From the NCBI RefSeq assembly GCF_016806065.1, contig NZ_CP032405.1, positions 3,996,001-4,060,000 of the forward strand: a stretch of DNA of 64,000 nt. Reading direction: 5' to 3'. The notes beneath the pieces were generated by a model, which saw only the letters and a program-made list of their open reading frames with translations, made no database searches and had not been told where the DNA came from. This stretch comes from Rhizobium rosettiformans (GTDB lineage: Bacteria; Pseudomonadota; Alphaproteobacteria; Rhizobiales; Rhizobiaceae). Shown here piece after piece: positions 7,555 to 24,142 of the stretch. Positions within the stretch are counted from its first letter, which is position 1; each line of letters begins with the position of its first letter. The position numbers and the translations under genes are program-made.

Positions 7555-7630
7555 GGGCCTGTAGCTCAATGGTTAGAGCCGGCGGCTCATAACCGCTTGG
7601 TTGGGGGTTCGAGTCCCTCCGGGCCCACCA
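7555..7630 (+). tRNA. tRNA-Ile(CAT), lysidine type, with encoded CCA
   Basis: The acceptor stem GGGCCTG pairs with CGGGCCC. The D arm is GCTC...GAGC, the anticodon arm GGCGG-CTCATAA-CCGCT carries anticodon CAT, and the T arm GGGGGTTCGAGTCCCTC ends in ACCA with CCA encoded. The combination TGGTTAGAGC...CTCATAACCGCTTGGT resembles E. coli ileX rather than initiator or elongator tRNA-Met, so I call it the AUA-decoding tRNA-Ile whose C34 is converted to lysidine. The satellite element inserted 36 bases downstream and left the tRNA intact. Confidence 0.9.
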
Positions 7631-7661: not shown

Positions 7662-7666
7662 ATCGT
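7662..7666. repeat. 5-bp target-site duplication (ATCGT), left copy, element 1
   Basis: ATCGT directly precedes the TG terminus at 7667 and recurs directly after the CA terminus at 15261-15265. The pentamer fits the Mu target preference N-Y-S-R-N. Confidence 0.93.
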
Positions 7667-7672
7667 TGTAGC

Positions 7673-7712
7673 TTGACACGCAAATCCGGAAATTTGACAC
7701 GCAAATCCGGAA
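7673..7712 (+). repeat. Tandem transposase-binding-type repeats at end A of element 1
   Basis: Two copies of TTGACACGCAAATCCGGAA start at 7673 and 7694, a 21-bp period of about two helical turns, immediately inside the TG terminus. Near-identical copies occur at 15332 and 15353 in element 2. Spaced repeats at the very ends of a Mu-type element are the expected layout for MuA-binding sites. Confidence 0.85.
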
Positions 7713-7723
7713 AAACCATTTTT

Positions 7724-8020
7724 TCAATTTGTCTCTTCAGCCGCACGAATGACGGCTTCCCGGCGGAGACGCGTCCAGTAGCGATAGATAGCCTGTCGCG
7801 ACGGTGTCCGCGATCCGCCAAACTGTCTCCGAACCGTTTTTTCAATCTCTCGTACTGTCAGATGGCCGAGCTTCATGGAGATGAAGACTGCAACCTCTGG
7901 GTCCCGTTCAATGGTGCTTCGACGGGGCTTCGAAAGCTGTTTGAAGCTAATGCCGCTTTGCTCTAAATCGAGCCTTGCTTTCAGCAGCGCCTGGTAGTCT
8001 GTCAGAGGGATCGTCACCAA
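7724..8020 (-). CDS. Small helix-turn-helix-like protein of the satellite
   Basis: This 98-residue basic protein is not matched to a named family. The segment 'HLTVREIEKTVRRQFGGSRTPSRQAIYRYWTRLRRE' looks like a helix-turn-helix with a recognition helix near residues 72-88, so DNA binding is likely. It is the last gene of the leftward satellite operon, ending 57 bases from end A. The start is uncertain: TTG at 8020 or GTG at 8017, with a weak ribosome-binding site. The position next to the end suggests a role in replication, packaging or end-site control, but that is a guess. Confidence 0.6.
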   Translation of the reverse strand: MVTIPLTDYQALLKARLDLEQSGISFKQLSKPRRSTIERDPEVAVFISMKLGHLTVREIEKTVRRQFGGSRTPSRQAIYRYWTRLRREAVIRAAEETN

Positions 8021-8029
8021 TCCCGGATA

Positions 8030-8050
8030 GCCCGCTTTTTTGAAGCGGGC
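8030..8050. other. Intercistronic hairpin in the satellite
   Basis: GCCCGCTT pairs with AAGCGGGC around a TTTTG loop between the Mor-like gene and the last satellite gene. Read on the transcribed minus strand there is no following U tract, so it is more likely an mRNA-processing or attenuating hairpin than a full terminator. Confidence 0.55.
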
Positions 8051-8073
8051 AGCCCTTCGGACATTGGGCCGGG

Positions 8074-8484
8074 TTATGCGACATTCGAGGTGACCTTTGT
8101 AGGTCTGGGCATCCGGCTCACTAGCCCCTGATCCCTGAGCCGCTTCACGTGGCGTTCAACACCGGACTCGGTGATGCGCAGGAGCATCGCGATTTCGCGA
8201 TTCTTGAGCCCCTGCTCATAGTACCTCTGGACAAGAAACGAGCGCGCCAGAGGCATCTTGATGTAGCCTCCCGGCATCTCGCTGCCCAGCTTCCTGACGC
8301 TGTCCCGCGAAATCGCTTTGAGGAGTGTCAGGTTCTCGCGTTCGGCATTCGCCGGAATGTAGCAGCGGAGACCGCCGAAATGCACAAAGAGACTATGCGC
8401 CTCATCGTCTCCGATCAGGTCGCGGATTTGGTTAACGTTGAGCGATTCATGGAAATGGCCGTCGATATCGTCATCATGAAACAT
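8074..8484 (-). CDS. Mor-like transcription activator of the satellite
   Basis: This 136-residue protein shows the Mor/C arrangement: an acidic N-terminus, then 'HFGGLRCYIP' (the GG-x3-IP turn typical of Mor) near residue 50, and a C-terminal helix-turn-helix 'NREIAMLLRITESGVERHVKRL'. Mor-family dimers switch on middle or late promoters of Mu-like phages. The ATG at 8484 is chosen because CAGGAG lies seven bases before it; the longer frame lacks such a site. The prophage encodes a comparable protein at 46391-46786 with 'HGGTRVSIP', so both elements may control late genes in the same manner. Confidence 0.7.
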   Translation of the reverse strand: MFHDDDIDGHFHESLNVNQIRDLIGDDEAHSLFVHFGGLRCYIPANAERENLTLLKAISRDSVRKLGSEMPGGYIKMPLARSFLVQRYYEQGLKNREIAMLLRITESGVERHVKRLRDQGLVSRMPRPTKVTSNVA

Positions 8485-8628
8485 GATCGCTCCTGGAAAT
8501 TTTGCCCCGGCAGTGAGGAAAGCGGCGGACTCACTGCCGGGGCTTAGACGTCGCACCACACGAGGAAATGGCGCGACGATCTGGCTAGTTCACGCTGCGG
8601 TCTGACATGGCTCTTCCATCTAAAGGGT

Positions 8629-8659
8629 GCGTCCAGGCGGCTGACGGTCGCCTGGACGC
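8629..8659. terminator. Perfect 11-bp stem after the satellite capsid gene
   Basis: GCGTCCAGGCG pairs exactly with CGCCTGGACGC around a 9-base loop. It lies between the capsid stop (8755) and the Mor-like gene. On the minus strand a short, imperfect T-rich stretch follows, so termination or partial read-through is plausible. Confidence 0.55.
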
Positions 8660-8754
8660 TTGAGGACGTTGGACCCATGGATATCGCCCAACGCATGCTT
8701 GCCGGGAAACCACTCCGGCGATCAGTGCCCGCCAGCAGGGAACGGGCACCGAAT

Positions 8755-9648
8755 TCAGGCGACGTGCGCCGTAACGATCAGCTCGACGGAATTTGCCCAG
8801 ATGTTGCTTTCGCCGCCGCTGATGAGCGTGGAACTGATCAGCCTGCGAGCTACGCCCTCAAGCGCCGGGGGAACCACCATGTGCGTTGCCATGATACTGA
8901 GGGGCTTGCCGCTGGGGCGGCGCAGGGTCGCCATCGCGGTTCGAGCGGCTTCGTAGCTTGCTTCGTTCAGGGTTGCGCCGGAGCAATAGGCAAGCTGCCA
9001 CAAACCGTAGCCTGCATTGCAGCGGCCATCGGTGCCGTAGATGTACTTGTTCTGGAAGAACACGTTGTCATCGTTCGGTGCCGTCTTCGAAGTGAAATCG
9101 AACGGTCGGCGCTCCTGGTAGATCATCGGCTTCAGGGGCTGACTGCAATCGAAGAGATACCATTTCGGACCAGCGCCGGCGACGTAGTTGGATGCAGCGA
9201 CCTGGTCGCCCTGTTCATCGAAGCCGACGTGATCGGTGTCGAAGAAGTACTGCCCGTCGAAGCACTTGGTCACGGTGCCGTCCTTGATCAAGTCGAAGAC
9301 CAGGCTGTCAGGAAACTGCGCGACATCGAAGCCAAGCTTCTCCAGGCGCGGCCCGAAAATGCCGTAGGTGTCGTCTTCGATGTTCTCGCGGGGAACCGAC
9401 ACCGTCTCTTCGAAGGTCCGGTTCTTGATCCGGTACTGCGCGCCCGAAAGATCGTGAATGATACGGTCGCCCAGCCATTCGCGAATGCCCGGCGTGTCTT
9501 CAAGCCAGCCGTAGTTTTCGGCGGCATGGCTGGAGCTGACCTTCATCGCGATCTTCAACCAGTGCGACGTGGCGCTGCTCAAGCCCTTGTTAAACGACGT
9601 GTTGAACCCGTCGTACAGTGACTTCATGGTGCTCGGGTTGATGTTCAT
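8755..9648 (-). CDS. Mu gpT-like major capsid protein of the satellite
   Basis: This 297-residue protein is homologous by eye to the prophage capsid at 36532-37428. Shared landmarks in order are 'YGWL', 'REWLGDR', 'NRTFEETVSVPRENIEDD' (prophage: 'NRKFEGTVTVARDDIEDD'), 'DGQYFFDTDH' and 'PLKP' with following Arg-rich residues. These define the Mu-like major head subunit family. The length is essentially the same as the prophage protein (298), so it is not a truncated remnant. Sequence identity is only moderate, so it is not a recent copy of the resident prophage. The start overlaps the protease stop by four bases, indicating translational coupling. It should form the satellite's own shell. Confidence 0.9.
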   Translation of the reverse strand: MNINPSTMKSLYDGFNTSFNKGLSSATSHWLKIAMKVSSSHAAENYGWLEDTPGIREWLGDRIIHDLSGAQYRIKNRTFEETVSVPRENIEDDTYGIFGPRLEKLGFDVAQFPDSLVFDLIKDGTVTKCFDGQYFFDTDHVGFDEQGDQVAASNYVAGAGPKWYLFDCSQPLKPMIYQERRPFDFTSKTAPNDDNVFFQNKYIYGTDGRCNAGYGLWQLAYCSGATLNEASYEAARTAMATLRRPSGKPLSIMATHMVVPPALEGVARRLISSTLISGGESNIWANSVELIVTAHVA

Positions 9649-10610
9649 TTGTCGGCCTTTCCGCCATAGGCTTTGACATCTTCAGCCGAGAGGCCGAGGT
9701 TGCGATGCACGTCCGTCACCTCCGAGCTTCCGCTCTGGTCACGCTCGCGCTGTTTCGAAAAATCGTGGGAGGATTGCAGACTGGAGATGAATTCACCCAC
9801 TGGCTTGCCGGAGCCGGTGAGGAAGTCATCAAACGCTGCCTTGTTGACCTGGCACAGGCTCACGGCCCAATCGCGCATGAACGGCAGGAGTTTTCCGCCC
9901 TTGATGTGACCGTCCACTTCCACTTCCGCCGCCTGGAGCGAGATGCCGGAGCGCAGTTTGTGCAGTTCCGCAACGGTCTGCTGGAACATGTCAATCGGCA
10001 CGAACTGCGCCGGATCGGCGCTGTTCATGCTCTTGCTGGTCTTGACCGTCTGAAGGATCGCGTCGGCATCCGCAGTCGCAGGAAGTCCGAGCGCCGTCCG
10101 CAGATCGCTCATGAATTTCTCGTAGTCCATGGAAAGGCCTTTCTCAGCCGCATTGAGAGACTTCAGGGTGAGGTTCGGGTTGTTGGTCAGCGAGGCGCGG
10201 GCAATCGCGAGGACCTTGAAATCCTTGGTGTGGAAAAGCACCGGAGACAGGAACCGAAATTCCTTGTCCTTCACCTGCTGCGCCGCCTTCGGGGTCCACT
10301 CGACAAGGCCCCAGATGCCATCAGCCCGCGCTTCCATCTGGGAAATCCAGCCAGCGGCAGGCGCTGGCAACCCTTGAGGCGCAAGCTTGTCGATTGCGTG
10401 CTCATAGTCGATGGGCAGCTTGTCGGTGCTGATGTTCTGGAATGAACGGCTGATGACGGCCTTCGCATCGTCAACCACGTAGGGGCCGCGACCGTCCACG
10501 GTCTTCATCGAGCCGAGCGTGACGAGCTGGACCCATTGTTGCCGTTCTCCCTGTTCGGAAGAGGCAAGACTGACGGCCTGGGCAGTCGATGATTGAAGAG
10601 AGAGGTCCAT
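9645..10610 (-). CDS. Mu gpI-like head maturation protease/scaffold of the satellite
   Basis: This 321-residue protein matches the Mu protease-scaffold family: 'VQLVTLGSMKTVDGRGPYVVDD' near the N-terminus, 'LPIDYEHAIDKLAPQG' (His about 90), 'PAAGWISQMEARADGIWGLVEWTP', then 'EFRFLSPVL' and 'IARASLTNNPNL'. The same blocks occur in the prophage protein at 37880-38881 ('LPVDIDHATVKK', 'APAVGWISKLEARADGLYGKVEW'). The C-terminal half is the expected scaffold region. It lies immediately upstream of, and overlaps, the capsid gene, as in Mu-like phages. A purine-rich GGAAAG precedes the ATG. Together the two genes can in principle assemble and mature a prohead. Confidence 0.88.
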   Translation of the reverse strand: MDLSLQSSTAQAVSLASSEQGERQQWVQLVTLGSMKTVDGRGPYVVDDAKAVISRSFQNISTDKLPIDYEHAIDKLAPQGLPAPAAGWISQMEARADGIWGLVEWTPKAAQQVKDKEFRFLSPVLFHTKDFKVLAIARASLTNNPNLTLKSLNAAEKGLSMDYEKFMSDLRTALGLPATADADAILQTVKTSKSMNSADPAQFVPIDMFQQTVAELHKLRSGISLQAAEVEVDGHIKGGKLLPFMRDWAVSLCQVNKAAFDDFLTGSGKPVGEFISSLQSSHDFSKQRERDQSGSSEVTDVHRNLGLSAEDVKAYGGKADK

Positions 10611-10663
10611 GGGGCTTTCCGGTGGTTAGCCCCGAAATTGCCCGGAAAAACGCCAGAAAACCA

Positions 10664-10681
10664 TGCCCGCCTAAGCGGGCA
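10664..10681. promoter_or_regulatory. Dyad upstream of the satellite head operon
   Basis: TGCCCGC and GCGGGCA flank CTAA, 54 bases before the protease start. It occupies the position that the GGCTGACA dyad has in front of the prophage protease but differs in sequence. It may be an operator or a hairpin ending the upstream transcript. Confidence 0.45.
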
Positions 10682-10850
10682 CGGTCTCGGAAAGACGCCA
10701 AACTGAGAGTTTTCTAGCGGAAAATCACTGTGGAACTAATGCCCGCCGTGGCGGAAAGTTCATCGAGTGGCTCCACTCCTCTAGCTCTCCTCATCTTCGC
10801 CCTGAGAAGAGCGTCAAGGGCGATTCCGGCCCGTCGCTCGTGCCAGGCCG

Positions 10851-11078
10851 TCAAATCGCGCCCACGGGCTTTGAAGGGGCCTCGAAATCGATTTTAGGCT
10901 GAAGCGATAGTGATTCCTCTTCCCGTTCGCGCTCGACGCGCCAAGGAATGTCCTCAACGCTGTGGTCATTAGCAAGATGGCAGGCCACCCAGAACTGCCC
11001 CTTTGCGTCCAGCTTCCGGCAGAATTCCACGGCCCAATGCTTGATACCAACCTCTTCTCGTTCCAGAAGGTTTGTCAC
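10851..11078 (-). CDS. Partial duplicate of the C-terminus of the satellite ParB-like protein
   Basis: A 75-residue frame starting at GTG reads 'TNLLEREEVGIKHWAVEFCR' and 'VEDIPWRVERERE'. This is a clear copy of the last 60 residues of the ParB-like gene just upstream ('TNLLEREEVGIAHWAAKYCR', 'VDDIPWKVERWRE'). The similarity continues upstream of the GTG ('FTKWFIPEL') until an in-frame stop, so the copy is a tandem duplication of the 3' end. Substitutions between copies are mostly conservative, which suggests it may still be made as a small protein. It could equally be a decaying fragment. The translation start is uncertain. Confidence 0.55.
   Translation of the reverse strand: MTNLLEREEVGIKHWAVEFCRKLDAKGQFWVACHLANDHSVEDIPWRVEREREEESLSLQPKIDFEAPSKPVGAI
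10857..10890. repeat. 34-bp block shared with the prophage (copy 1)
   Basis: The reverse complement of this block matches prophage 39018-39051 at 31 of 34 positions. A third, more diverged copy (27 of 34) lies at 11197-11230. The core is CTTCAAAGCCCGTGGGCGCG. Confidence 0.8.
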
Positions 11079-11196
11079 CAGCTCGGGGATGAACCATTTC
11101 GTGAATGCTCGCGCTGCGAAGAGATCTCACATTTTAGCGCGATCCACAAGCGCACCGCTTGCCTTCTGTGGTTGCCCCTCGGCCGCAGTCGTGAAG

Positions 11197-11230
11197 CGCG
11201 CCCAAGGGCTTCAAAAGTGCTTCAAAATCG
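11197..11230. repeat. 34-bp block shared with the prophage (copy 2, diverged)
   Basis: This lies just after the stop of the ParB-like gene and before the duplicated fragment. It matches copy 1 at 27 of 34 positions and forms part of the tandem duplication of the ParB 3' region. Confidence 0.65.
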
Positions 11231-11285
11231 ATTCTGCGAGCGTTCTTTCGAGATCGGCGCAGCCTTCAGCACCGAGATTGCCATT

Positions 11286-12713
11286 CTATTCGGTCGCGGA
11301 TCGCCCATTGCGCTTCTCCTCTTCCAGTTCCCTCGCCTCGTCTTCACGCCATCGCTCGACCTTCCAGGGAATGTCATCAACCCGATGGCCGTTACCGAGG
11401 TGGCATGCTACCCAATACTGTTCCTTCGCATTCAGCTTCCGGCAGTATTTTGCGGCCCAATGAGCAATGCCCACTTCCTCACGTTCGAGCAGATTGGTCG
11501 TAAGTTCGGGAATGAACCACTTCTGAAACGCCTTTTGCCGCTTCATTTCGGGTGTGTGGGCTGGACGGCCGCGCTTTGCTTTCCGCGCTTTCGCGGCCTT
11601 AGCTTTCGCGACGACCTGGTCGTGTTTTGGCCGGTTCGCCTTCTCCTGGGCATTCACCTTTTCGGAAACCCCAAGGGCTAGCCGCCATGCTCGCTGGTCT
11701 TCTTCCTTTTGCTCCTTCCGCGCAGCCACAATCTCCGCATAAGTGGGCGCGACATAAAGTGTCCCGTACGGGTCGCGCATCATCTCCCACAGCGGTGACT
11801 TGTTGCCCGGTGAAGGCAGCGGAGGCGGAGGCGGGAAGTCTGTCGGCCACGGATCGAGCGGCTTGGCAACCGCGCCGATCTTCTCCAGGGCGGCGGAGCG
11901 GCGGTCTCGCGGCATTCCCTCCCAGGCTTCCACAAACTGCTGTTCGCGCCAGTCACCCGTCTCCATGCGGCCGACAATCCTGTGGCCCGCCTGTATAGCG
12001 TCTATGCGCAATACCGCGTCAAGGTCTGGATTGATGGCGAGACTGGTGGCTATGCGGCCCTGCATCACAAAAATGGGCTCTAGTTTGCCTGGGTAGGGCT
12101 TTATCAGCTTCCGCAGGCAAGTCTGATCCTTGGCATATTTCGTGCCCCGTAGGGCAGAACGCAAGGAAGGATGCATGTTTCCTATCTTAAGCAATCGCCA
12201 AGCGGTACTCTTTGAAATGCCGAACTTGTCCGTTAAGTCTTTGTAAAATCCTGATTTTTCCAGAAAATCAAATTCACGTTTCAAGGTTTCCGTGTGAAAC
12301 CTTGATCGTCGGTCGCCGCCGTGGGAAATCGGCCCATTCATCTCGGTCCACAATTGAGCGAATCGTGCGACGTGTTCACCCTGCTCCAAAACATCCAACG
12401 TCGGCAAGGCCAGATTGTCGTCAATAGAGAGCAAAAGAGCTTCCGCCTTGGTGCGCAAAACCGCCTCAATTTCACTTCGACCAAGGATCGCCATCGCCCG
12501 AAGCCGACGCGCTCCATAGATCAGAGTATAGGGCTTTTCTCCGCCCTGCCTGGCCGAACTGCGGTAAACTGCAATCGGCGTCTTCTGCCCCTCGGTGTCA
12601 ATCAGTCGCGCCAGCCGCTGCGCTTCCGCCTCATCCAACGGACGCACATAATCGTCCGGCACGTGGACCTGATCAACCCGAACCGAAAAGGTCTTGGAAA
12701 TGTCGCTCAACAC
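11286..12713 (-). CDS. ParB/Srx-domain protein with a long C-terminal extension
   Basis: This 475-residue protein starts with a ParB N-terminal domain: 'VPDDYVRPLDEAEAQRLARL', 'TPIAVYR', and 'YTLIYGARRLRAMAILG' with the Arg-rich nucleotide/DNA loop. A helix-turn-helix follows ('LTDKFGISKSTAWRLLKIG', about 165-185). The middle holds a proline-rich linker and the C-terminal third is basic ('KAKAAKARKAKRGRP') before the conserved tail duplicated at 10851-11078. The prophage encodes a shorter relative (56136-56960) with the same ParB domain. ParB-like proteins bind centromere-like sites and may hydrolyse CTP. Here it may act in replication, segregation or packaging. No ParA is encoded nearby. Confidence 0.8.
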   Translation of the reverse strand: MLSDISKTFSVRVDQVHVPDDYVRPLDEAEAQRLARLIDTEGQKTPIAVYRSSARQGGEKPYTLIYGARRLRAMAILGRSEIEAVLRTKAEALLLSIDDNLALPTLDVLEQGEHVARFAQLWTEMNGPISHGGDRRSRFHTETLKREFDFLEKSGFYKDLTDKFGISKSTAWRLLKIGNMHPSLRSALRGTKYAKDQTCLRKLIKPYPGKLEPIFVMQGRIATSLAINPDLDAVLRIDAIQAGHRIVGRMETGDWREQQFVEAWEGMPRDRRSAALEKIGAVAKPLDPWPTDFPPPPPLPSPGNKSPLWEMMRDPYGTLYVAPTYAEIVAARKEQKEEDQRAWRLALGVSEKVNAQEKANRPKHDQVVAKAKAAKARKAKRGRPAHTPEMKRQKAFQKWFIPELTTNLLEREEVGIAHWAAKYCRKLNAKEQYWVACHLGNGHRVDDIPWKVERWREDEARELEEEKRNGRSATE

Positions 12714-13030
12714 TGCGCATCCCCGATCATCGTCAACCGACTACTCACGATAGACGCGAGAAGCACAGAAACGCTCGTTCCTCTCTTTTTGGCGGCTTCC
12801 TTGAGCTTTTGCCTAACGGCAATGGGAAGCCTCACGCTGATAGGCACGCCCAGTTCCTGCGGCACGTCGTTGGGTAGGTCGCTCTTGTCAAGCGCCGCGA
12901 TCACGACCGGCCGCAACATCGAACTGACGCTCTGTCCGCGCTTCTTGGCAAGGTCAAAGATCCGCGCCCGCAATTCGAGGCTGATCAACGCGCTGGTCGG
13001 TATTGCCGTTTGCAGGTCCGCGTCCGTCAA
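12707..13030 (-). CDS. Protein with two tandem ribbon-helix-helix-like repeats
   Basis: This 107-residue protein has two similar units. The first is 'LISLELRARIFDLAKKRGQS' (about 15-48), the second 'PISVRLPIAVRQKLKEAAKK' followed by 'RGTSVSVLLASIV' (about 62-98). Each reads as a beta strand followed by two helices, the ribbon-helix-helix pattern, so a single chain may mimic an RHH dimer and bind DNA. It overlaps the ParB-like gene (7 bases) and the DnaA-IV-like gene (4 bases), so the three are translationally coupled. Possible roles are repression of the operon or a partition adaptor. Confidence 0.65.
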   Translation of the reverse strand: MTDADLQTAIPTSALISLELRARIFDLAKKRGQSVSSMLRPVVIAALDKSDLPNDVPQELGVPISVRLPIAVRQKLKEAAKKRGTSVSVLLASIVSSRLTMIGDAQC

Positions 13031-13404
13031 AGCGCCGCCTCCATCCGTTCATAGCTCGCCGCAAACATCGGGCTTTCCAGCCGCCCGTTCACGGTCTGGA
13101 GCGCAAAGTGAATCGAGGTGCGTTGCCGCCCTTGAAGCCGGGCGATCTGTCGCTGCTCCATGCTCAAACAGTTGACCATCAGGTGAACGGCGATCTGCCG
13201 CGCCAGCTTCGCGTCCAGCATCGTGCGCGGCGGCTTCCGCACCTGGTCGATAGACAACCACTGGAATTCCGATTGAACAGCCCGGTAAGCCCGTTCGGCC
13301 CTTGCGACCGCGTCGGGGCCGTAATGCGCAGCACTCGGCTTGCCGGAATAGCGGCGATGCTTATGTTCGCGGCGCTGGGCCTGAGAAGCGATCATGTGCG
13401 TCAT
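13027..13404 (-). CDS. DnaA domain-IV-like DNA-binding protein of the satellite
   Basis: This 125-residue protein carries 'DAKLARQIAVHLMVNCLSME' followed by 'RQIARLQGRQRTSIHFALQTV'. It resembles the C-terminal DnaA-box-binding domain (basic loop, then helix-turn-helix and signature helix) without the AAA+ part. The prophage has a homologue at 56960-57334 ('DAALARQIVMHLIIREFSWP', 'RSREAINRALRTI'), also upstream of its ParB-like gene. Binding to host oriC-like DnaA boxes or interference with host DnaA is a reasonable idea but not shown. The N-terminus is basic ('RREHKHRRYSGKP'). Confidence 0.65.
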   Translation of the reverse strand: MTHMIASQAQRREHKHRRYSGKPSAAHYGPDAVARAERAYRAVQSEFQWLSIDQVRKPPRTMLDAKLARQIAVHLMVNCLSMEQRQIARLQGRQRTSIHFALQTVNGRLESPMFAASYERMEAAL

Positions 13405-13568
13405 TTCGAGAGGTAGCCCCTCTCTTTCAGATAGTCTGACAACAATTTCTCTATGAGAGACGTAAGGGACCGCTGATCGTCAGCTGCTGCGCGATCCGCA
13501 GCAGCCTTCATCTCCGGCTTGATGCGGATGTTCAACTGGGCTGATTTGTTTCTCGGATTATCTGCCAT
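13401..13568 (-). CDS. Small ribbon-helix-helix protein, probable autorepressor
   Basis: This 55-residue protein reads 'QLNIRIKPEMKAAADRAAAD' followed by 'LTSLIEKLLSDYLKERG', a textbook RHH (Arc/MetJ-type) fold. The start at 13568 is favoured because the frame upstream runs through an operator-like direct repeat. It is the first gene of the leftward satellite operon and faces the rightward regulator gene at 13700. Two 14-bp direct repeats lie at and just upstream of its start. It probably represses its own promoter and perhaps the divergent one. Confidence 0.75.
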   Translation of the reverse strand: MADNPRNKSAQLNIRIKPEMKAAADRAAADDQRSLTSLIEKLLSDYLKERGYLSK

Positions 13569-13618
13569 GTATAGCCTAAGGCTGTTGCCAATCACATTCA
13601 TTATGTGTATAGCCTTAG
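13567..13618. promoter_or_regulatory. Divergent control region with two operator-like direct repeats
   Basis: ATGTATAGCCTAAG (13567-13580) and GTGTATAGCCTTAG (13605-13618) are near-identical direct repeats 38 bases apart. They lie between the RHH gene (minus) and the regulator gene (plus). A TATACA -10-like element on the minus strand falls inside the outer repeat, so a bound protein would block it. Confidence 0.65.
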
Positions 13619-13699
13619 GAGTCACAAATCAAGCGGCCCGCTGAATGAGTTCGCACCTCATCCAACAGGCCTAACCCAACGGCAAAAGGAGAACCCCTC

Positions 13700-14428
13700 A
13701 TGCCACAGGCTGCTTTCGCAGATAGCACAACTGCGCGCTCGTTTCAGCACATCTTGCAGGTCGATTTCGACGTTTTTGGCGACACGATCGATGAGATCGA
13801 AGCGCTGGCCCATATGCTCGACGCCACCTTGCGTGAACCGGGGACGCTGCATCCCGATATCGTCTCCGGTATAACCGGTCTTTTTCGGGGGCGCATTTCG
13901 GACCTGCGGGACATCTGTGAGAAAGCCTTGGAAGAACGGCAGCGCTGGAGGGGATGGGCAGGGCCTCAGGAAGCGAGGGGAACCCCGGTGCGGCCCGAAA
14001 TCCTCGCTCTGGTTTTCGAGGTCGTGTCCGACAAGATGCGCGACGTGGGCTTCTACATGCCTCCTGACAACGTACTGGAGTGGGACAGCGCCGCGAAGGA
14101 TCGCGCTTGGCGTCTCGCGACACAGATTTTCAACGAACTGTGCAACAGGCTCCCCGATTCGGGCGACTTTATCGACGCTGCGAAGCAGATCCGATGGATC
14201 GAAGATCGGGTGATGGAGGAACTGGGCGAAGGTCCGGCCCAACCCGAGAAATCCAAGCAGCGGCCTACCTCCCTATCCATGCGCGAGCAATTCATTGCCC
14301 AGGCGCATGCGGATGGATACTCCTCCGCCGACATTTCGATGGCGCTAGGCCTGCGCCAGACAGCTGTGAGAAGGGCGATCCGGAAGATACTGGGTGTGAA
14401 GCCTGAGGATGAGGCCAAGACCGCCTAG
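13700..14428 (+). CDS. Divergent helix-turn-helix regulator of the satellite (unknown family)
   Basis: This 242-residue protein is the only sizeable rightward gene of the satellite, the usual place for a repressor. The N-terminal two thirds are helical and unrecognised ('VDFDVFGDTIDEIEALAHML'). The C-terminus carries 'AHADGYSSADISMALGLRQT' and 'AVRRAIRKILG', a helix-turn-helix. AAAGGAG sits ten bases before the ATG and a strong terminator follows the stop. By position it could maintain quiescence or respond to a helper, but the sequence gives no direct proof. Confidence 0.7.
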   Translation: MPQAAFADSTTARSFQHILQVDFDVFGDTIDEIEALAHMLDATLREPGTLHPDIVSGITGLFRGRISDLRDICEKALEERQRWRGWAGPQEARGTPVRPEILALVFEVVSDKMRDVGFYMPPDNVLEWDSAAKDRAWRLATQIFNELCNRLPDSGDFIDAAKQIRWIEDRVMEELGEGPAQPEKSKQRPTSLSMREQFIAQAHADGYSSADISMALGLRQTAVRRAIRKILGVKPEDEAKTA

Positions 14429-14454
14429 TCTCGCGTTCGGTTTTGGCCCAATGG

Positions 14455-14487
14455 GGGCGGTTCGGCATCCACCGGACCGCCCTTTTT
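14455..14487 (+). terminator. Rho-independent terminator after the satellite regulator gene
   Basis: An 11-bp stem starting GGGCGGTTCGG (one G-U pair), a six-base loop and TTTTT follow the stop codon at 14428 by 26 bases. Confidence 0.92.
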
Positions 14488-14581
14488 GCTGTCTAATCCA
14501 CCAAGCGCTTTCGGCATTCACAGCGGGCCGATTTCCAAACACCTTCGAAGCCACTTCAACACCAGCTCGAAGGTTGTTCCC

Positions 14582-14800
14582 ATGCGTTCTATTGCCCGTG
14601 CCGCTCGCCAGAAATACCCTCGCAACAACATCGTCCCCTTTTGGTTGCTCTGCTACTGGAAGTTGGTGCGAACCGAAGCCGAAGGCGACTTTGCAAAGGC
14701 GTGGAAAATGCTGCCGCGTCGCTTGCCGGCCGGCGTCCAATGCCCGACAATTGAGGTACTGGCGGTGGCCCTCGTGGATCACGGCTTGGCGGACAGATGA
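14582..14800 (+). CDS. Small hypothetical protein at the right side of the satellite
   Basis: This 72-residue frame begins 'MRSIARAARQKYPRNN' and has an aromatic middle ('VPFWLLCYWKLVRTEAEGDF'). A weak GAAGG lies upstream of the ATG at 14582. It follows the terminator of the regulator gene, so it would need its own promoter. I do not recognise the family. It is the last possible gene before the 460-base non-coding end. Confidence 0.4.
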   Translation: MRSIARAARQKYPRNNIVPFWLLCYWKLVRTEAEGDFAKAWKMLPRRLPAGVQCPTIEVLAVALVDHGLADR

Positions 14801-15260
14801 GGGGTTCGCGTGCAAATCTTCTTGGCATGTTTTTTCAATAATTCGGTCGATGTTTTGCGCCTGTAAGTCTTTGTTCGATATGGACTTTCAGCAACGCTGA
14901 TTTGGCTATAGTTTGAGGTTCCACCGAAACGCAAAACTTAAAATTAGGAATTCGCCCCACAAAGGCCGTCATTGGCCGATTTCGCGGGAAATCTCTGAAG
15001 GCCGCTCACGCGTTGAATTTCAATGGTTTGAAGAAGCTCTGAAGAAAAACAGGCGGTTTTTGAAGCCCTTTTCGAAGTCTGCCCCAATCTATGGGAAACT
15101 TCCGTCTTTCGGCGCGAATTTCCGATTTTGCGTGTCAAAAAGTTGGTGCTGCGATAGCCCGGCTCTCACTGCCAAGTGACTGACATTGTTTCGTATTGTC
15201 TTGTTTGGACGCACAATGGCACGTTTAGCCATAAATTCCGGAAATGGGTGTCAAACAACA
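14801..15260. other. Non-coding end B region of element 1
   Basis: These 460 bases hold no credible gene. Reading inward from the terminus at 15260, the complement strand shows TTTGACACCCATTTCCGGAA (15236-15255) and, about 100 bases further in, TTGACACGCAAAATCGGAA (15120-15138). Both are variants of the end-A repeat. AT-rich DNA and several TTTGAAG/CTTCAAA-like motifs (15037-15085) fill the rest. The region likely holds transposase-binding sites and could hold a packaging or replication signal. Confidence 0.75.
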
Positions 15261-15265
15261 ATCGT
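15261..15265. repeat. 5-bp target-site duplication (ATCGT), right copy, element 1
   Basis: Exact repeat of 7662-7666, directly after the CA terminus of element 1. Confidence 0.93.
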
Positions 15266-15325: not shown

Positions 15326-15331
15326 TGTAGC

Positions 15332-15371
15332 CGGACGCGCAAATCCGGAAATTTGACACGCAAATCCGGAA
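15332..15371 (+). repeat. Tandem transposase-binding-type repeats at end A of element 2
   Basis: CGGACGCGCAAATCCGGAA (15332) and TTGACACGCAAATCCGGAA (15353) repeat with the same 21-bp period as at 7673/7694. A third, inverted variant with GTGTCAA lies near 15379-15400. Confidence 0.85.
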
Positions 15372-15597
15372 AAATGAATTTTCCACCGGTCGTGTCAAAA
15401 ACGCTCTTCAAGGCCTAATCGAAGACCCGTCACGCAGCCTTTGAATAGAATGCCACGGATTTCCTCAATCACTCGGTAATAATACCTTACGTTTCCAGTT
15501 AGCCGCTCATTGACCCTCTGGCTCGTCCGCCTCTACCGTTGGCCATCGGAGCTGCTGGCCCATCTCCGCTTCCCCAAAATTCATATTGGAGCATCCG

Positions 15598-16461
15598 ATG
15601 GACATTACGTCTCTCGGGGGAGAACGGGCCGCCCCTTTCGAACCCACTTTCGCCAGCGCTGCCGAGAGCTACCTGAAGCATGGAGGCGAGGAGCGCTATC
15701 TCGCACCGATCGTCGCATATTTCGGTGATCGGCCATTGAAGACGATCTACCCGTTCGACATCAAGGCGATGGCCGAAGCCCTCTACCCCTCGCAAAGCAA
15801 TGCCACGCGCAACAGGCAGGCCGTCACGCCGGCTCGGGCAGTTCTGATGCACGGCTATGACCGAGGTTGGTGCAATTTCATCCGAGTTCGACGGTTCAAA
15901 GAGGAGAAGCCGAAAAGGCGGAAACCGGCAACTGCTGTCTGGCTCCACGCGTTTTCTCGCCAGTGCGACAAGGATGGTTTAGAGCACCTGGCTGCGATCG
16001 TCCTGTTCATGGCTTCGACGGGAGCGAGAATCAGCGAAGCGATTGCCCTCCGTTGGGACGAGGTAGATCTGACCGCGAGAACGGCGCTCCTGTTGAAGAC
16101 AAAAACCAGTACGAACTCCATGCGCTATCTGACAGATGAGGTCGCCAGAAGGCTGCGAGGCCTGAAGGAGGGAAACAGCTCAACCGATCGCGTTTTCAGG
16201 TACAGCAACAGGCACTCTGTCAACGAGCGGATCCGTGCAGTCTGCGACCGCGCGGACATTCCCTACAAGCCCCCTCATACATGCGGACGACACACCTTCG
16301 CATCTACAGCCATCGAGCTTGGCATGGATGTGAAGACGACGATGATTGCGGGAGACTGGCGCAGCTCGTCGGTATTCCTGGAGACCTACGTCACGCCCAG
16401 GGGAACACCTGGGCGGGTCGTTGCTGATCGCATGAACGTCCACGATTTTGGCGATATCTAG
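15598..16461 (+). CDS. Tyrosine recombinase carried at the late end of the Mu-like prophage
   Basis: This 287-residue protein has the catalytic set of the phage-integrase family: Arg in 'STGARISEAIALRWDEV', a Lys in 'LLKTKTSTNS', the box 'PHTCGRHTFAS' (His and Arg), 'GDWRSSS' in the second His/Trp position, and the nucleophile Tyr in 'FLETYV'. The ATG at 15598 is chosen because TTGGAG lies just upstream. It reads opposite to the tail genes and ends at a shared terminator. Mu-like phages integrate through MuA and do not need such an enzyme, so it may be cargo, a DNA-inversion or dimer-resolving recombinase. No tRNA-type att repeat was found. Confidence 0.88.
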   Translation: MDITSLGGERAAPFEPTFASAAESYLKHGGEERYLAPIVAYFGDRPLKTIYPFDIKAMAEALYPSQSNATRNRQAVTPARAVLMHGYDRGWCNFIRVRRFKEEKPKRRKPATAVWLHAFSRQCDKDGLEHLAAIVLFMASTGARISEAIALRWDEVDLTARTALLLKTKTSTNSMRYLTDEVARRLRGLKEGNSSTDRVFRYSNRHSVNERIRAVCDRADIPYKPPHTCGRHTFASTAIELGMDVKTTMIAGDWRSSSVFLETYVTPRGTPGRVVADRMNVHDFGDI

Positions 16462-16482
16462 CGGTTAACGATGTCAAAGAAC

Positions 16483-16503
16483 GGCCCGCCTTTGAGGCGG
16501 GCC
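16483..16503. terminator. Bidirectional terminator between recombinase and tail-end genes
   Basis: GGCCCGCC pairs with GGCGGGCC around TTTGA between convergent genes. T-rich sequence follows on the plus strand (TTCC, weak). Confidence 0.75.
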
Positions 16504-16534
16504 TTCCACGCCCTTCGGTGATGGGGTGGTGGGG

Positions 16535-17881
16535 TTAAAGCGGAAGCTTCTGCAAGAATATGCTTCCGATACGGCATCTGTCAGCGCTCGCCGCAGCCCG
16601 CGCCTGCCGGAGCAAAAGTCTCACGGGATCGCCGGAAACATCAGATATGGTGAAGTCGAAAGACCCGGATGAAACGACATTGCCCATGAAGCCAGTCGCA
16701 ATTGGCGTAGGAGTTACGTTAGATCCGTTTGTCGCCTTGGTAATGAAGACGTCAGTGCCGCCATTGGGATTTCCGGCGAGCGACACATCGCCAAACAGCA
16801 GGCGATAGTCACCAGGCTCAGAGATACCCAAGATAAGAGAGACGCGATTGAATGGCGCACCAGTTCCGTCACCGTTAAGCAGAAGCGTGTCGGGCGTAGT
16901 CGCCGTGTCAATTGACGCTGTTCCGGCGTGTATCGTGACGCCGGAAAGCCCATCGTCCTCTGCAACGTAATTGAGAGGCGGGGTTGGATCTGGATCTGTT
17001 CGCCAGAACTTGGTCTGACGGTTTACAGTTGCGATAGAAAGAGGCGAAGACGTTGCCGGGTCAAACTCTGCGTAGAACTTAATGCGGCTCTGGCCTGTGT
17101 GCTGCCTGACGTAGTAGCGCATAAAGTTCGACTGTTCGTGGGCATCGCATGTTATCTGCGCCTGTATCCCGCTCGTCGGGTTTCGCAGTATGACCCCGCT
17201 ATCAACCGTAATTTTGTCGTTGACTACGATTTGCTCAAATGTCTCGCCCCCGTCAGTGCTGTACTGCGAGGCGTTCGACAAGATCTCGTGTGATACAAGC
17301 ACCTCGCTCCAGACCTGATCACTGGAAACAAAGGACATCGCGTCCCTGAAAATGCCATTCGGCAAGATCTGGCATTCAAACTCGGCGTCAACCTGCGCCG
17401 CTCCGGTCACGCCGACAGAGGAACGAGTCAGGCGGAATGTGCCGCGCTGCTCGCCGCTTGTGGAAACATCGGGGATATGAAGCTCAGATGTTGTCTCGCC
17501 GCCGTGGAAACTCATCACCCATTTAGACTCTGCGTTGCTGTAGAACGCATAATCGCGAGCGCCGAGGTCGAACTCGGACGCGATAATGACACGGTTCACA
17601 TTATCGTCGTGAGGGCTTTCAACGGAGGGCAGCCCGTAAATTCCGACCCGCCGCCAAGCATCCCAAGGAGATCCGGTGTCAGTCGCGCCTGAGCCCCCAT
17701 CATCTTTTATGAACTGGTAAGCGATTGCTCCGGAGACGCCTAAATCGGCAACAGCAACCTTTACCCAAAACTCATCGTCGCTGACATACTCGACAGCATA
17801 CACACCACCCTTGTTTGGGGCGAGGCCGAGCTTCATTCCGCCAAGACAGAGATTTCCATTCCCCAAAACAAGAGTGTTCAT
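16535..17881 (-). CDS. Phage structural protein of unknown class (possible tail-tip or decoration protein)
   Basis: This 448-residue protein is rich in Ser, Thr, Gly and beta-strand-forming residues. It has no recognised domain. Its C-terminal 130 residues look like a beta-sandwich ('GDYRLLFGDVSLAGNPNGGT', 'SGSFDFTISDVSGDPVRLLL'), as in carbohydrate-binding or receptor-binding modules. It is the last gene of the leftward late operon and overlaps the preceding small gene by four bases. A role in host recognition is a guess from composition and place. Confidence 0.6.
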   Translation of the reverse strand: MNTLVLGNGNLCLGGMKLGLAPNKGGVYAVEYVSDDEFWVKVAVADLGVSGAIAYQFIKDDGGSGATDTGSPWDAWRRVGIYGLPSVESPHDDNVNRVIIASEFDLGARDYAFYSNAESKWVMSFHGGETTSELHIPDVSTSGEQRGTFRLTRSSVGVTGAAQVDAEFECQILPNGIFRDAMSFVSSDQVWSEVLVSHEILSNASQYSTDGGETFEQIVVNDKITVDSGVILRNPTSGIQAQITCDAHEQSNFMRYYVRQHTGQSRIKFYAEFDPATSSPLSIATVNRQTKFWRTDPDPTPPLNYVAEDDGLSGVTIHAGTASIDTATTPDTLLLNGDGTGAPFNRVSLILGISEPGDYRLLFGDVSLAGNPNGGTDVFITKATNGSNVTPTPIATGFMGNVVSSGSFDFTISDVSGDPVRLLLRQARAAASADRCRIGSIFLQKLPL

Positions 17882-18171
17882 TCTGAAATGACCTCGAACG
17901 TAAGAGCGCCCTCACCAGACGGATAAGCGTAGACGTTGATGGGGCTGAACTCGCCGACCGACAGCGAGATTGGCTGGCCGCTTTTCACAGTGATGAAATC
18001 AAGTGCGTTACCGGTGCCTGACGGATTGGGCGCAGTACCAGGCGTAGAGGCGCCTGTCTTGATGTAGGCGACGCCAGGCGACCTGAGCGAAGCCAGAAAG
18101 TTGACAACACTTGTTGCGATCGGCGTCCACTGGCCGGCGGGGCAAACAACCCCTTTTGTGGTTACAGGCAT
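17878..18171 (-). CDS. Small phage protein of unknown function
   Basis: This 97-residue protein is hydrophilic, starting 'MPVTTKGVVCPAGQWTPIAT' and with Gly/Pro-rich loops. No family was recognised. It starts just after the end of the IS-interrupted gene and is coupled to the next gene, so the three form a late module at the end of the tail operon. Confidence 0.6.
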   Translation of the reverse strand: MPVTTKGVVCPAGQWTPIATSVVNFLASLRSPGVAYIKTGASTPGTAPNPSGTGNALDFITVKSGQPISLSVGEFSPINVYAYPSGEGALTFEVISE

Positions 18172-18297
18172 GGTTGCTTCCTCTCTTAGAAATTGCTCCA
18201 GGCCTTCGCAGCAGAACCGCCTTTGTTCTCGCGAACGGCAATCTTCACGAAGGGCAACTTGGCGAAGTGGCCTGCTGCCGGTTTTTCGGACACCGAG

Positions 18298-19158
18298 TTA
18301 GGCTAATCCCACTTTGTTTTCAAATTCCATAGGGCTGAGGTAGCCCAGTGTCGAATGGCGACGCTTTGGATTGTAGAAGCGCTCGATGTAATCGAACACG
18401 TCCGCCTTTGCATCGTCCCTGGTCCTGTAGACCTTGCGAGCTGTCCTTTCCGTTTTGAGTGATGAGAAGAAGCTTTCCATCGCGGCATTGTCCCAGACAT
18501 TGCCGGATCGGCTCATCGAGCATGTGATGCCGTGGTCGGCCATGAGACGCTGGAACTGCTCGCTTGTGTATTGGCTACCCTGGTCCGAATGGTGGAGGAG
18601 CGCATCTGGCTTGCCTCTGCGCCAGATGGCCATGATCAACGCATCTGTAACGAGCTGGGCTGTCATATTGGTGCTCATCGACCAGCCAACAACACGTCGC
18701 GAGAACAGGTCGATGACGACGGCCACATAGAGCCAGCCCTCAGCCGTCCATAGATAGGTAAAATCGGCCACCCACTTCTGGTTCGGTCTTGCTGCCGCGA
18801 ACTGTCGGTCTAGCACATTCGGCATGATGACAGGGCGCTCACCGTCGTCTTTCGGCAAGCCACGCCGTCTCGGCCTTGCTCTCAATGCATTTTCCCGCAT
18901 GAGACGCTCGACGCGATGCAGGCCACAGGAGAGGCCTTCGGCGAGGAGGTCGTGCCAGACACGCCGCGCGCCATAGGTGCGGTCGCTATCCTTGAAGCTG
19001 TCCTTGATCTTGTCGAGCAGAGCCTCGTCATACCGGGCATGCTGGCTCGGAGACCGGTTTAACCAGGCATGAAAGCCGGAACGCGATACACCCAGCGCTT
19101 CGCAGAGCCATGCCACCGGCCAGATCGAACGGTGCTTTGCAATGAACGCGAACTTCAT
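18298..19158 (-). CDS. IS3-family transposase OrfB (DDE integrase core)
   Basis: This 286-residue protein has an HTH_21-like N-terminus ('YGARRVWHDLL') and an rve integrase core with the DDE triad: Asp in 'WVADFTYLWT', Asp in 'HHSDQGSQYTS' and Glu in 'NAAMESFFSSLKTE', with the usual 35-residue spacing between the last two. It is normally made as an OrfAB fusion by -1 frameshifting. It overlaps OrfA by four bases. It appears intact, so the IS may be active. Confidence 0.95.
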   Translation of the reverse strand: MKFAFIAKHRSIWPVAWLCEALGVSRSGFHAWLNRSPSQHARYDEALLDKIKDSFKDSDRTYGARRVWHDLLAEGLSCGLHRVERLMRENALRARPRRRGLPKDDGERPVIMPNVLDRQFAAARPNQKWVADFTYLWTAEGWLYVAVVIDLFSRRVVGWSMSTNMTAQLVTDALIMAIWRRGKPDALLHHSDQGSQYTSEQFQRLMADHGITCSMSRSGNVWDNAAMESFFSSLKTERTARKVYRTRDDAKADVFDYIERFYNPKRRHSTLGYLSPMEFENKVGLA

Positions 19159-19445
19159 ATCACGTCCTTCGCAAAGTAGGCGGCGGCCTTTTTTAAGATG
19201 TCACGCTCCGCCTTCAGCTTGGCCACTTCTTTCCGAAGCCTCTCGATCTCAAGCTGCTCAGGCTTCATCTGTCCCTGACCAGGAAACGCCTGTGCTGGGT
19301 CCGAACCATATTCCCTGACCCACTTGCGCAGGACATTCTCATGAACATCCAGATCGCGGGATGCCTGCGCAACGCCGACCCCACGCTCTCGAACCAATCT
19401 CACCGCCTCAAGCTTGTACTCGCGGCTGAACTTCCTTCGTTGCAT
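19155..19445 (-). CDS. IS3-family OrfA (HTH protein)
   Basis: This 96-residue protein has an N-terminal helix-turn-helix ('YKLEAVRLVRERGVGVAQAS', 'RDLDVHENVLRKWV') and a C-terminal leucine-zipper-like coil ('EIERLRKEVAKLKAERDILK'), as expected for OrfA. The AAAAAAG heptamer at 19189-19195 on the minus strand, within the codons for 'LKKA', is the standard -1 frameshift signal that yields the OrfAB transposase. Confidence 0.94.
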   Translation of the reverse strand: MQRRKFSREYKLEAVRLVRERGVGVAQASRDLDVHENVLRKWVREYGSDPAQAFPGQGQMKPEQLEIERLRKEVAKLKAERDILKKAAAYFAKDVI

Positions 19446-19709
19446 TAATGCACTCCAGTTTCATTGGAAGCACCTTAACTCGGTGTCCAAGAAACCGGCA
19501 GCAGGCCAAAGCGCTCGAACTTCTTTTCGGGTTTGATGGTGGCTACAAGCATCCAGTCAGCAGCCCCATCAACCCGGCCCAGCACATCAAAGAGAGCCCC
19601 GCTATGATCCGCCTTCACCTGGATGATGAAATCATCGGCGGGCGACCATCCCACACCTTCACCAGTCACCGTGGTCACATCTAGTCTCGTTGGCATTTCA
19701 TGTCCCCTC

Positions 19710-20711
19710 TCAGGTCTTTGCGGCGCATTCGAATGACATCAGCCATCCGCCGCTCTCATCAAAAGTGAAGGTGTGAACGAGCGTTGGCGCGACCAGCTCG
19801 AAGCCAGCCCATCCACCGAAGCCCGAAAGGATGACAGGGGCGCCCGCCATAGCCTCGGGCCGCCCCTCGATGGTGATGCCGCCGCTCACCGTTGCCCTTG
19901 CCAGATCGAGCGCCTCGGCACGGCTTCGCTGCCTTGCTTCGCTTGCGGACGGTGCCGGATGAAGGCCTAAAAAGCGCGCGGCCTGGCCGAGGCCGGGAAC
20001 GGCCTCCAGGAACGAGATGCCAAGCCCTTCATCAAACCAGCTCGACTGCACCTCACCGAATTCCGGACGGCCTTCCGTCGTCAGGTCGCAATCGATCACC
20101 TCATCCATCGAGACGGTAATCGGCGGCAGGGTCGAACCGTTCGCCGTTTCGCCGCTGTTTTTCATGGTGATCAACCATTCACCGTTTGCCAGCTTAAGGG
20201 TCGCCCCGAGTTCATCGGCCAGCGTCTGGGCAAAGCCCACGGCCGATTGCTGATAACGCAGGCGGTACGGGATCTCGATCGCTTCGACGGACGGATGCAC
20301 CTTGGCGTTCTTGCCAACGCCGGCCGCAAGCCGCTTGAAGATTTGTCCTGCCGTGGCCTCTTCAAAGCTCTCAAGATCTGCGGCTTTGTCAGCATCGACG
20401 AAGTCTGCCGATCGGCAGGTAATTGTCATGATCCAGCCGCTCTCGGCGTCAAAGGTCAGGCCGGCGCTCTGGAAGGTGAAGAGGCCCGCGTCTTTCAGTC
20501 CTTGCCCTGTCCAGCCATAGATGAGCCGATACTGTGTGCCCTTGGCCGGCGCAGCCTGAAGCGGCGTAGAAACCGAGAACTGCATATTGATCTCGTCCGC
20601 ATCTCCGCCCTCATTGTCGGTGAAGGACAACGACATCAGCGAGCTGCCCCATCCGGGAACGAGGTCCGCTCCGGACTGACCGATTACCTGGACCAATGGC
20701 TTCCTCATCAA
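19710..20711 (-). CDS. P2 gpD-like baseplate hub / late control protein D
   Basis: This 333-residue protein matches the phage late-control D / baseplate hub family. It opens with a beta-rich start ('VQVIGQSGADLVPGWGSSLM' and 'SLSFTDNEGGDADEINMQFS'), then 'YRLIYGWTGQGLKDAGLFT', 'GWIMTITCRSADF', and 'YQQSAVGFAQTLADELGATL'. In P2 the protein forms the hub at the tail end. It follows the U and X genes in the P2 order U-X-D, one base after X, and is the last recognised tail gene. Confidence 0.88.
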   Translation of the reverse strand: MMRKPLVQVIGQSGADLVPGWGSSLMSLSFTDNEGGDADEINMQFSVSTPLQAAPAKGTQYRLIYGWTGQGLKDAGLFTFQSAGLTFDAESGWIMTITCRSADFVDADKAADLESFEEATAGQIFKRLAAGVGKNAKVHPSVEAIEIPYRLRYQQSAVGFAQTLADELGATLKLANGEWLITMKNSGETANGSTLPPITVSMDEVIDCDLTTEGRPEFGEVQSSWFDEGLGISFLEAVPGLGQAARFLGLHPAPSASEARQRSRAEALDLARATVSGGITIEGRPEAMAGAPVILSGFGGWAGFELVAPTLVHTFTFDESGGWLMSFECAAKT

Positions 20712-20933
20712 TCACTCCCAGGCCAGCGCAAAGCGCCTGCCGGCGCTCTTCGGTGAAAACTCTGCTGGCAGGCGGATGACTGTGCCTGCCGGCACAACGC
20801 CCGACTGCATCAGACCGGCAAGACCGGGATTGGCGTCGAGGAGTGCCTCGACGGTGCCCTCCAGTTCGGTCTGCATCAGCTTCTTGGCGATGCGGTCGAG
20901 GCGCTCGCCTCCATGGGCCACGGTGTAGCTCAT
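20712..20933 (-). CDS. P2 gpX-like tail protein (LysM-type)
   Basis: This 73-residue protein, 'MSYTVAHGGERLDRIAKKLM' to 'VPAGTVIRLPAEF', reads as a LysM-like fold seen in tail protein X. Members bind at the tail tube or baseplate and may contact peptidoglycan. It overlaps gpU by four bases and abuts gpD. Confidence 0.9.
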   Translation of the reverse strand: MSYTVAHGGERLDRIAKKLMQTELEGTVEALLDANPGLAGLMQSGVVPAGTVIRLPAEFSPKSAGRRFALAWE

Positions 20934-24124: not shown

Positions 24125-24142
24125 TTTGAAGCCTCTTCAAAA
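24124..24142. promoter_or_regulatory. Perfect TTTGAAG/CTTCAAA palindrome before gpE
   Basis: TTTTGAAG-CCT-CTTCAAAA is an exact 8-3-8 inverted repeat touching the gpE start codon. Related sequences occur at 33319, 39020, 40405 and in element 1, often in gaps between genes. Confidence 0.5.

Follow-up and report, generated by a model that had tools for sequence, protein, structure and literature searches.

Structure of the locus

The window analysed here is a 64,000-nucleotide stretch of Rhizobium rosettiformans DNA (NZ_CP032405.1, positions 3,996,001 to 4,060,000) that holds a short element, E1, which we interpret as a probable satellite of Mu-like phages, followed by a Mu-like prophage, E2 (Table 1). 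E1 bears the marks of Mu-type transposition: TGTAGC starts at 7667 and CAAACAACA finishes at 15260, giving TG/CA ends, and the 5-bp duplication ATCGT that encloses them is perfect. Two direct 18-mer repeats lie at 7675-7692 and 7696-7713, and inverted copies of the end repeat, 90-91% complementary, are found at 15117-15139. E2 has the same 18-mers at 15334-15351 (17/18) and 15355-15372 (18/18), 46 of the first 50 bases of the two left ends are identical, and the terminal CAAACAACA is common to both elements, which are 65 bases apart. The initial annotation, made from the letters of this DNA, had taken the TG/CA ends, the duplication and the transposase-type end repeats for traces of such transposition, and all three were confirmed. 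A candidate empty site was found in one of 63 genus genomes (G048), where the joined flanks of E1 match without interruption at 86% across both junctions; only the last tRNA bases precede the joined flanks there, and the intact tRNA-Met copy is on another contig. Matches to the joined flanks in other genus genomes covered mainly the tRNA part.

E1 encodes a gpI-type head maturation protease and a gpT-type major capsid protein that are both full length by profile, the gpI stop overlapping the gpT start. They are accompanied by Mor-type, ParB-like, ribbon-helix-helix and helix-turn-helix (HTH) genes, in keeping with the first claim of an intact gpI-gpT pair with regulators of its own. Searches of 7667-15260 with profiles built from collected loci gave no terminase, portal, gpF, tape measure, MuA or MuB, so that the reported absence of MuA, MuB, portal, terminase and tail genes was also borne out. 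There was no integrase match among the scanned E1 proteins, and no PHROG or Pfam match for a small terminase or connectors. The claim that lysis genes are missing stands to the extent that none had a PHROG or Pfam match, its sole basis, and is left partial by some small open reading frames (ORFs) without assignment.

Table 1. Features of the window and related elements with matched ends (positions refer to the window; aa, amino acids)
Feature	Position	Strand	Length	Remarks
Host tRNA-Met	7555..7630	+		36 bases separate it from the E1 left end
ATCGT target duplication, left copy	7662..7666			
Satellite element E1	7667..15260		7,594 bp	TGTAGC...CAAACAACA
E1 left end	7667..7713	+		two direct 18-mer repeats (putative transposase sites)
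Small terminal-gene protein	7724..8020	-		phrog_16319, weak; common to several satellites
Mor-type late transcription activator	8074..8559	-		phrog_836, 5.7e-12
gpT-type major capsid protein	8755..9648	-	297 aa	PF10124, 1.1e-115, profile 2-288 of 289
gpI-type head maturation protease	9645..10610	-	321 aa	PF10123, 2.3e-53; phrog_328 over 13-316 of 321 aa
Partial duplicate of ParB-like C-terminus	10851..11078	-		versus 11286-11523: 186 nt, 73%
ParB-like protein	11286..12713	-	475 aa	phrog_3264, 3.3e-32
Ribbon-helix-helix protein	12707..13030	-		PF07878
DnaA-C-like protein	13027..13404	-		phrog_9734
Ribbon-helix-helix protein	13401..13625	-		
HTH protein	13700..14428	+		satellite-only among 173 loci compared
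orf14486 protein	14486..14800	+		satellite-only among 173 loci compared
E1 right end	15117..15260	-		inverted repeat copies and terminal GTGTCAAACAACA
ATCGT target duplication, right copy	15261..15265			
Mu-like prophage E2, candidate helper	15326..60016		44,691 bp	duplication ACCGA
E2 gpT capsid	36532..37428	-		E2's own
E2 gpI protease	37880..38881	-		E2's own
E2 portal	40304..41968	-		
E2 large terminase	41962..43380	-		
E2 MuB	52292..53545	-		
E2 MuA transposase	53403..55451	-		phrog_310, 1.1e-148
L032			8,027 bp	duplication CGGAA; same genome as E1
L101			8,524 bp	duplication GCCCT
L183			8,870 bp	duplication GCGAG
L187			8,815 bp	duplication GCGGC
L195			8,139 bp	duplication TGTAG
L200			8,757 bp	duplication CCGAT
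L201			8,782 bp	duplication CGGGA
L258			7,290 bp	duplication TCCGT
L268			9,505 bp	duplication CCAGA
L189, less sure			9,246 bp	duplication GATTT
L133, less sure			8,968 bp	duplication TGTGT

A family of related elements

Ten elements including E1, 7.3-9.5 kb long, have matched ends and differing 5-bp duplications. Eight of them come from genomes or metagenomes other than that of the window, E1 and L032 sharing one genome. The ends of two further elements are likely only, having been picked from one (L189) and eight (L133) candidate pairs. The initial annotation had set the search for independent copies with similar ends at other sites as a test beforehand, and these ten elements and the two less sure ones are what it yielded. 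A comparable gene set occurs in L031 (Rhizobium sp. SL86), L036, L038, L040, L042, L114, L147, L182 and L033/L034, whose ends are cut or unsettled; unsettled are the ends of L031, L036, L182, L134, L038, L040 and L147. By these comparisons E1 has relatives at other insertion sites as well as regulators of its own. We call the elements satellites, a label assigned from gene context.

None of the 19 satellite loci searched gave a profile match for terminase, portal or gpF, and most members of the capsid-bearing set have a Mor-type late activator. Of the gene set first claimed for the satellite, the capsid and protease without packaging genes held, but the set proved wider. Tape-measure genes are present in 12 of 21 elements (L032, L033, L042, L101, L133, L147, L183, L187, L195, L200, L201 and L268), and six members carry MuA and MuB (L031, L036, L114, L133, L182 and L189), the remaining ones being without. 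By profile search E1, L031, L036, L038, L040, L114, L182 and L189 have no tape-measure gene, and L258 has nothing beyond a 90-aa ORF without a profile match. Clearly shorter satellite tails are unsupported: the median tape-measure ORF is 741 aa in 11 satellites versus 808 aa among 34 phage ORFs, in lists compiled by hand that leave out fragments, broken ORFs and L147 and in which the phages are partly redundant.

The gpT and gpI of L032 are 93% and 95% identical to those of E1, the right half of the element is mostly different, and it encodes a 749-aa tape-measure protein (phrog_794, 3e-60). L032 is inserted in another Mu-like prophage (duplication CCGAT), 25 bp in from its left end; the terminase, portal, gpI, gpT, MuA and MuB genes of that prophage are in view. 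L258 matches E1 at 96% over its last 1.6 kb and at 84% in the ParB region; its capsid belongs to a different family (phrog_1005) and its gpI is shorter. That L258 shares the right end of E1 and has another capsid family suggests that capsids are exchanged as modules.

Two E1 proteins recur with the satellites. Besides E1, the HTH protein was found in 13 loci (12 elements, one being the MuA-carrying L036, with a weak score) and the orf14486 protein in 12, and neither in any other of the 173 loci, a set with only four full phage right ends that was searched with satellite-derived models. Three of 296 further genomes hold relatives of orf14486, L268 with the satellite set and L266 and L267 without gpT; a protein search gave 17 orf14486 clusters in all.

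Several observations stand beside these. In four cases (L032:2659-10710, L259:7747, L258:10777 and window 15260-15326) a phage left end directly adjoins or encloses the right end of the satellite, both facing the same way; L195 was dropped as a case of nesting in a phage end, the sequence past its right end not continuing as a left end. L266 and L267, relatives from the same order, have orf14486 and Mor-like genes without gpT and are possibly a further capsid-less branch. L132:2118-9079 (own genome, C1) is a 6,962 bp element with the duplication TTCTC and a 17/18 terminal inverted repeat; it has MuA, MuB, a gp16-like gene and three copies of the small terminal gene, no capsid, and lies beside ABC-transporter-like genes. 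L150:1-10769 (G041) holds a left end beside a tRNA-Met. ParB-like and regulator genes, both terminase subunits (small and large) and a portal gene all occur within 10 kb of it, and no match to gpT, gpI or tail was obtained; this may be a complementary type of short element, one that has kept packaging genes in place of a capsid.

Capsid lineages and selection

A gpT tree of 19 satellites and 103 phages needs two changes of label (2-3 in bootstraps), and none of 500 shuffles was as low (shuffled mean 18.0); an earlier 96-row tree also had two. The 122 rows leave out 30 loci, mostly short contigs, that have no terminase or portal in view and were not judged satellites, as well as seven duplicates, with L202 and L203 skipped as repeats of L247 and L246. 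L064 and L068, satellites in the earlier tree, were then unclassified, their contigs ending just upstream of gpI. The two label changes indicate that the satellites are not one clade, yet are unmixed with the sampled phages, and satellite capsids thus form lineages apart from the sampled phage capsids. The initial annotation had asked whether the same genes always sit within full-length phages; they do not. MuA-carrying and MuA-less satellites mix in this tree, from which it appears that loss, gain or exchange of the transposition genes took place on more than one occasion.

The arrangement of the pair also differs. Among the loci compared for gene spacing, those with terminase and portal have 401-1128 bp between gpI and gpT, with a small extra gene there in the five examined; where satellites have gpI first, the spacing is -4 to 216 bp. 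L033, L195, L200 and L201 carry the two genes in reverse order, and gpI was not found in L042, L133 and L189. The ratio of nonsynonymous to synonymous substitution rates (dN/dS) between E1 and L032 is 0.088 for gpT, 0.084 for gpI and 0.124 for the small terminal protein, and that for gpT of L038 versus L040 is 0.089; by this measure gpT and gpI are under purifying selection.

Insertion sites

MuA-type transposases are usually thought to insert nearly at random. The flank is in view at 22 left-end sites. At 13 of them (window 7555-7667, L032, L038, L040, L101, L145, L146, L148-L151, L200 and L205) a tRNA gene lies 14-66 bp upstream of the left end, always in the same orientation; the counts were made by hand and include several loci fetched through a left-end match and several elements not read through. 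The targets are mostly tRNA-Met, also tRNA-Ser and tRNA-Phe, and the majority of the tRNA-Met insertions fall at a single chromosomal locus that recurs from species to species, hit at differing distances. No tRNA adjoins the other nine sites (L144, L183, L187, L195, L201, L202, L207, L258 and L268). Truncated older left ends are stacked beside tRNA sites, as if one site had been hit repeatedly.

In different genera, each of the five elements with capsid, MuA and host flank (L031, L036, L133, L182 and L189) is placed immediately upstream of lexA, with about 0.2-1.1 kb from the lexA start to the nearest element gene or end. L134 is also upstream of lexA, and the searches made found neither MuA nor gpT there; L132, which has MuA and MuB and no capsid, is not at lexA. 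In several elements, operator sequences resembling GTTC-N7-GTTC are found beside the junction. Judged from these flanks, the choice of insertion site departs strikingly from randomness, with many satellites a short way downstream of tRNA genes and the MuA-carrying ones next to lexA. Pseudomonas phage Ab30 is described with insertion hotspots beside repeats and no orientation bias (PMC5977238), and a Tn7-like transposon as homing to 30-33 nt downstream of a tRNA (PMC10293859).

Association with Mu-like phages

In 394 genomes of the family, 53 gpT matches could be placed: 11 satellite (in 10 genomes), 41 phage, a label given where terminase and/or portal was in view, and one unclassified (L244). 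A full phage is present in six of the 10 satellite genomes and in 32 of the 384 others (Fisher p 8.6e-5), or in five of nine (p 5.4e-4) without the window's genome. Compared with 14 left ends, those of E1 and L032 (46/50 each) and L201 (47/50) have their best match in the co-resident phage. Coverage of E1 falls short of 80% in every phage record; small parts of it are matched by 76 records, and in the 15 listed these are all capsid DNA. Protein searches of plasmids (57 records) and phages (210) with gpT as query gave relatives that, among the 20 listed for each, are all below 60% identity.

Some features of the neighbourhood are noted for completeness. Just inside its left end E2 has a tyrosine-recombinase-like gene (phrog_1, 15586-16461), odd for a transposing phage, with a 73% relative at the corresponding position in L042's phage. 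Inside E2 (51461-51552) ARAGORN predicts a tRNA-Arg that is absent from Rfam at the gathering threshold, and an Rfam terC RNA match (64.5 bits) lies at 63035-63095 of the window.

Interpretation and alternatives

We propose, with a probability of roughly 0.7 and on sequence evidence, that E1 belongs to a hitherto undescribed family of capsid-bearing satellites that have Mu-like phages as helpers, move by Mu-type transposition and use the portal, terminase and tail of the helper. E1 lacks the genes for an autonomous virion, has its own regulators and belongs to a set of multiple independent insertions, as a phage satellite should. The initial reading as a capsid-forming satellite is supported by the independent elements and the separate capsid lineages. 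Induction of a co-resident Mu-like phage would let its MuA and MuB replicate the satellite through the shared ends, and satellites with their own MuA and MuB would replicate themselves. The Mor-type activator would turn on the satellite's late genes, and gpI, which by analogy with Mu is scaffold as well as protease, would build a satellite-specific prohead with gpT. The helper would then give portal, terminase and tail, its terminase packaging from the helper-like left end of the satellite. Head size is determined by the scaffold-protease and the capsid protein, so the satellite would probably gain a head fitted to itself, suited to about 8-10 kb and excluding the roughly 39-45 kb helper; by analogy with P4, a 7-9 kb satellite would go with a smaller head. 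We infer that satellite particles form, that they are small and that they carry element DNA. The gene order is partly collinear with that of a Mu-like phage, and the ancestor was thus probably a reduced phage of that type.

A number of observations weigh against this proposal. In four of the 10 satellite genomes there is no second gpT at the cut-off (two of these four carry MuA), and the co-occurrence of phages and satellites may reflect only a common host susceptibility. The left ends of L183, L187, L147 and L195 match all 14 ends at no more than 30/50 (the L187, L147 and L195 types at no more than 25/50), and that of L040 is marginally closer to another genome's end (44/50) than to its neighbour's (43/50); moreover, just four of the 14 (E2, two more of this genome and G601) come from prophages whose genes were seen, and one (G041, L150) adjoins a short element. 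The phages entered the tree through their similarity to satellite gpT, and wider sampling could therefore add mixing; the L258 capsid reads in two frames. A class-wide search matched 12 of 385 genomes (own included), none of the others clearly a new satellite (a few contigs were too short to judge), which suggests that the group may occur largely within a single order.

E1 could instead be the remnant of a Mu-like prophage that lost its internal genes after insertion and whose capsid genes have not yet decayed. The order of right-end regulators, ParB and gpI-gpT is in part that of a reduced Mu-like phage, and E1 does have a partial ParB duplicate. However, the many independent insertions of 7.3-9.5 kb, the separate capsid lineages, the low dN/dS, the two satellite-only proteins and the combination in L258 of the E1 right end with another capsid family make such an origin very improbable; a one-off deletion is rejected by the independent elements, the gpT tree and dN/dS. 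E1 shows neither the neutral decay (dN/dS 0.08-0.09) nor the capsid lineage shared with intact phages of a defective prophage, in line with the initial annotation, which argued against simple decay from the intact frames and distinct regulators. It is somewhat less improbable, though still unlikely, that gpI and gpT serve interference, satellite subunits poisoning or redirecting helper head assembly with no transfer particle of their own: this pair, which sets assembly, is kept without portal or terminase, and satellites that remodel helper capsids are reported (PMC10945586). A fragment would suffice for poisoning, however, whereas capsid and protease are complete and under strong purifying selection, as expected for particle formation. 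We give equally little credence to the prophage remnant and to helper-free Mu-type transposons whose capsid genes are cargo or form a domesticated particle resembling a gene transfer agent. Six members do have their own MuA and MuB, but portal and terminase were not found in the satellites, which therefore would not package alone; the capsid-bearing set is seen again and again at separate sites, in most cases together with a Mor-type late activator, and is associated with phages. The complete head, terminase and tail cluster of a gene transfer agent is absent.

Within the satellite interpretation we tentatively suggest, at somewhat less than even odds, a more general scheme. Transposing satellites would carry only the parts that set virion dimensions (capsid and protease-scaffold, with a tape measure in more than half) and take the rest from a Mu-like helper; insertion would be targeted, many helper-moved satellites being placed downstream of tRNA genes in a single orientation and the kind with MuA and MuB beside the lexA promoter; and capsid modules would be swapped on a common backbone to suit the helper.

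Comparison with known systems

Were the proposal true, this would be the first satellite family spread by Mu-type transposition and the first satellites of Mu-like phages within the literature searched. Head-size control would become directly testable with a protease-scaffold and capsid pair alone on a helper portal, and there would be a natural system for aimed MuA-type insertion next to tRNA genes and lexA, the latter placing satellites with MuA and MuB next to the SOS switch. E1 shares ends, 5-bp duplication, gpI, gpT, Mor and ParB-type regulators with Mu-like phages and differs from them in being about one sixth to one fifth their size: the TG/CA ends and duplication are there, and the packaging, portal, tail and transposition genes, MuA, MuB and terminase among them, are missing.

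P4 and the phage-inducible chromosomal island-like elements (PLE) redirect the helper's capsid protein through a small factor, unlike the satellites here, whose capsid protein and protease are their own. Capsid-forming phage-inducible chromosomal islands (cf-PICIs) use helper tails and move by an integrase, whereas Mu-type transposition would move the satellites described here. In size P4 and PLE resemble the present satellites, being small, and they are reported to alter helper heads (PMC10945586). Like our satellites, cf-PICIs have their own capsid and head protease; they are described as also encoding portal, connectors and both terminase subunits (PMC10690885), which were not found here. 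E1 has by profile no portal, large terminase or gpF, and shows a 5-bp duplication instead of an integrase match. The Streptomyces satellites MulchRoom and MiniFlayer likewise encode capsid genes, but differ in encoding terminase, portal, capsid and scaffold and in having virulent helpers. Helper-embedded PICIs reside within the helper prophage, much as L032 lies within the left end of a phage; they enter late genes by an integrase (PMC10111431), and L032 was inserted with a 5-bp duplication at the phage end.

Among the literature matches listed (titles and abstract starts, with subscription journals sparsely covered) there was no transposing or Mu-like capsid-bearing satellite, and the statement of the initial annotation that no satellite with the E1 gene set had been described holds within them. 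To our knowledge, described phage satellites use site-specific integrases or travel as free genomes. Phage satellites as such are a known kind; Mu-type transposition as the means of their mobility is, within these matches, new.

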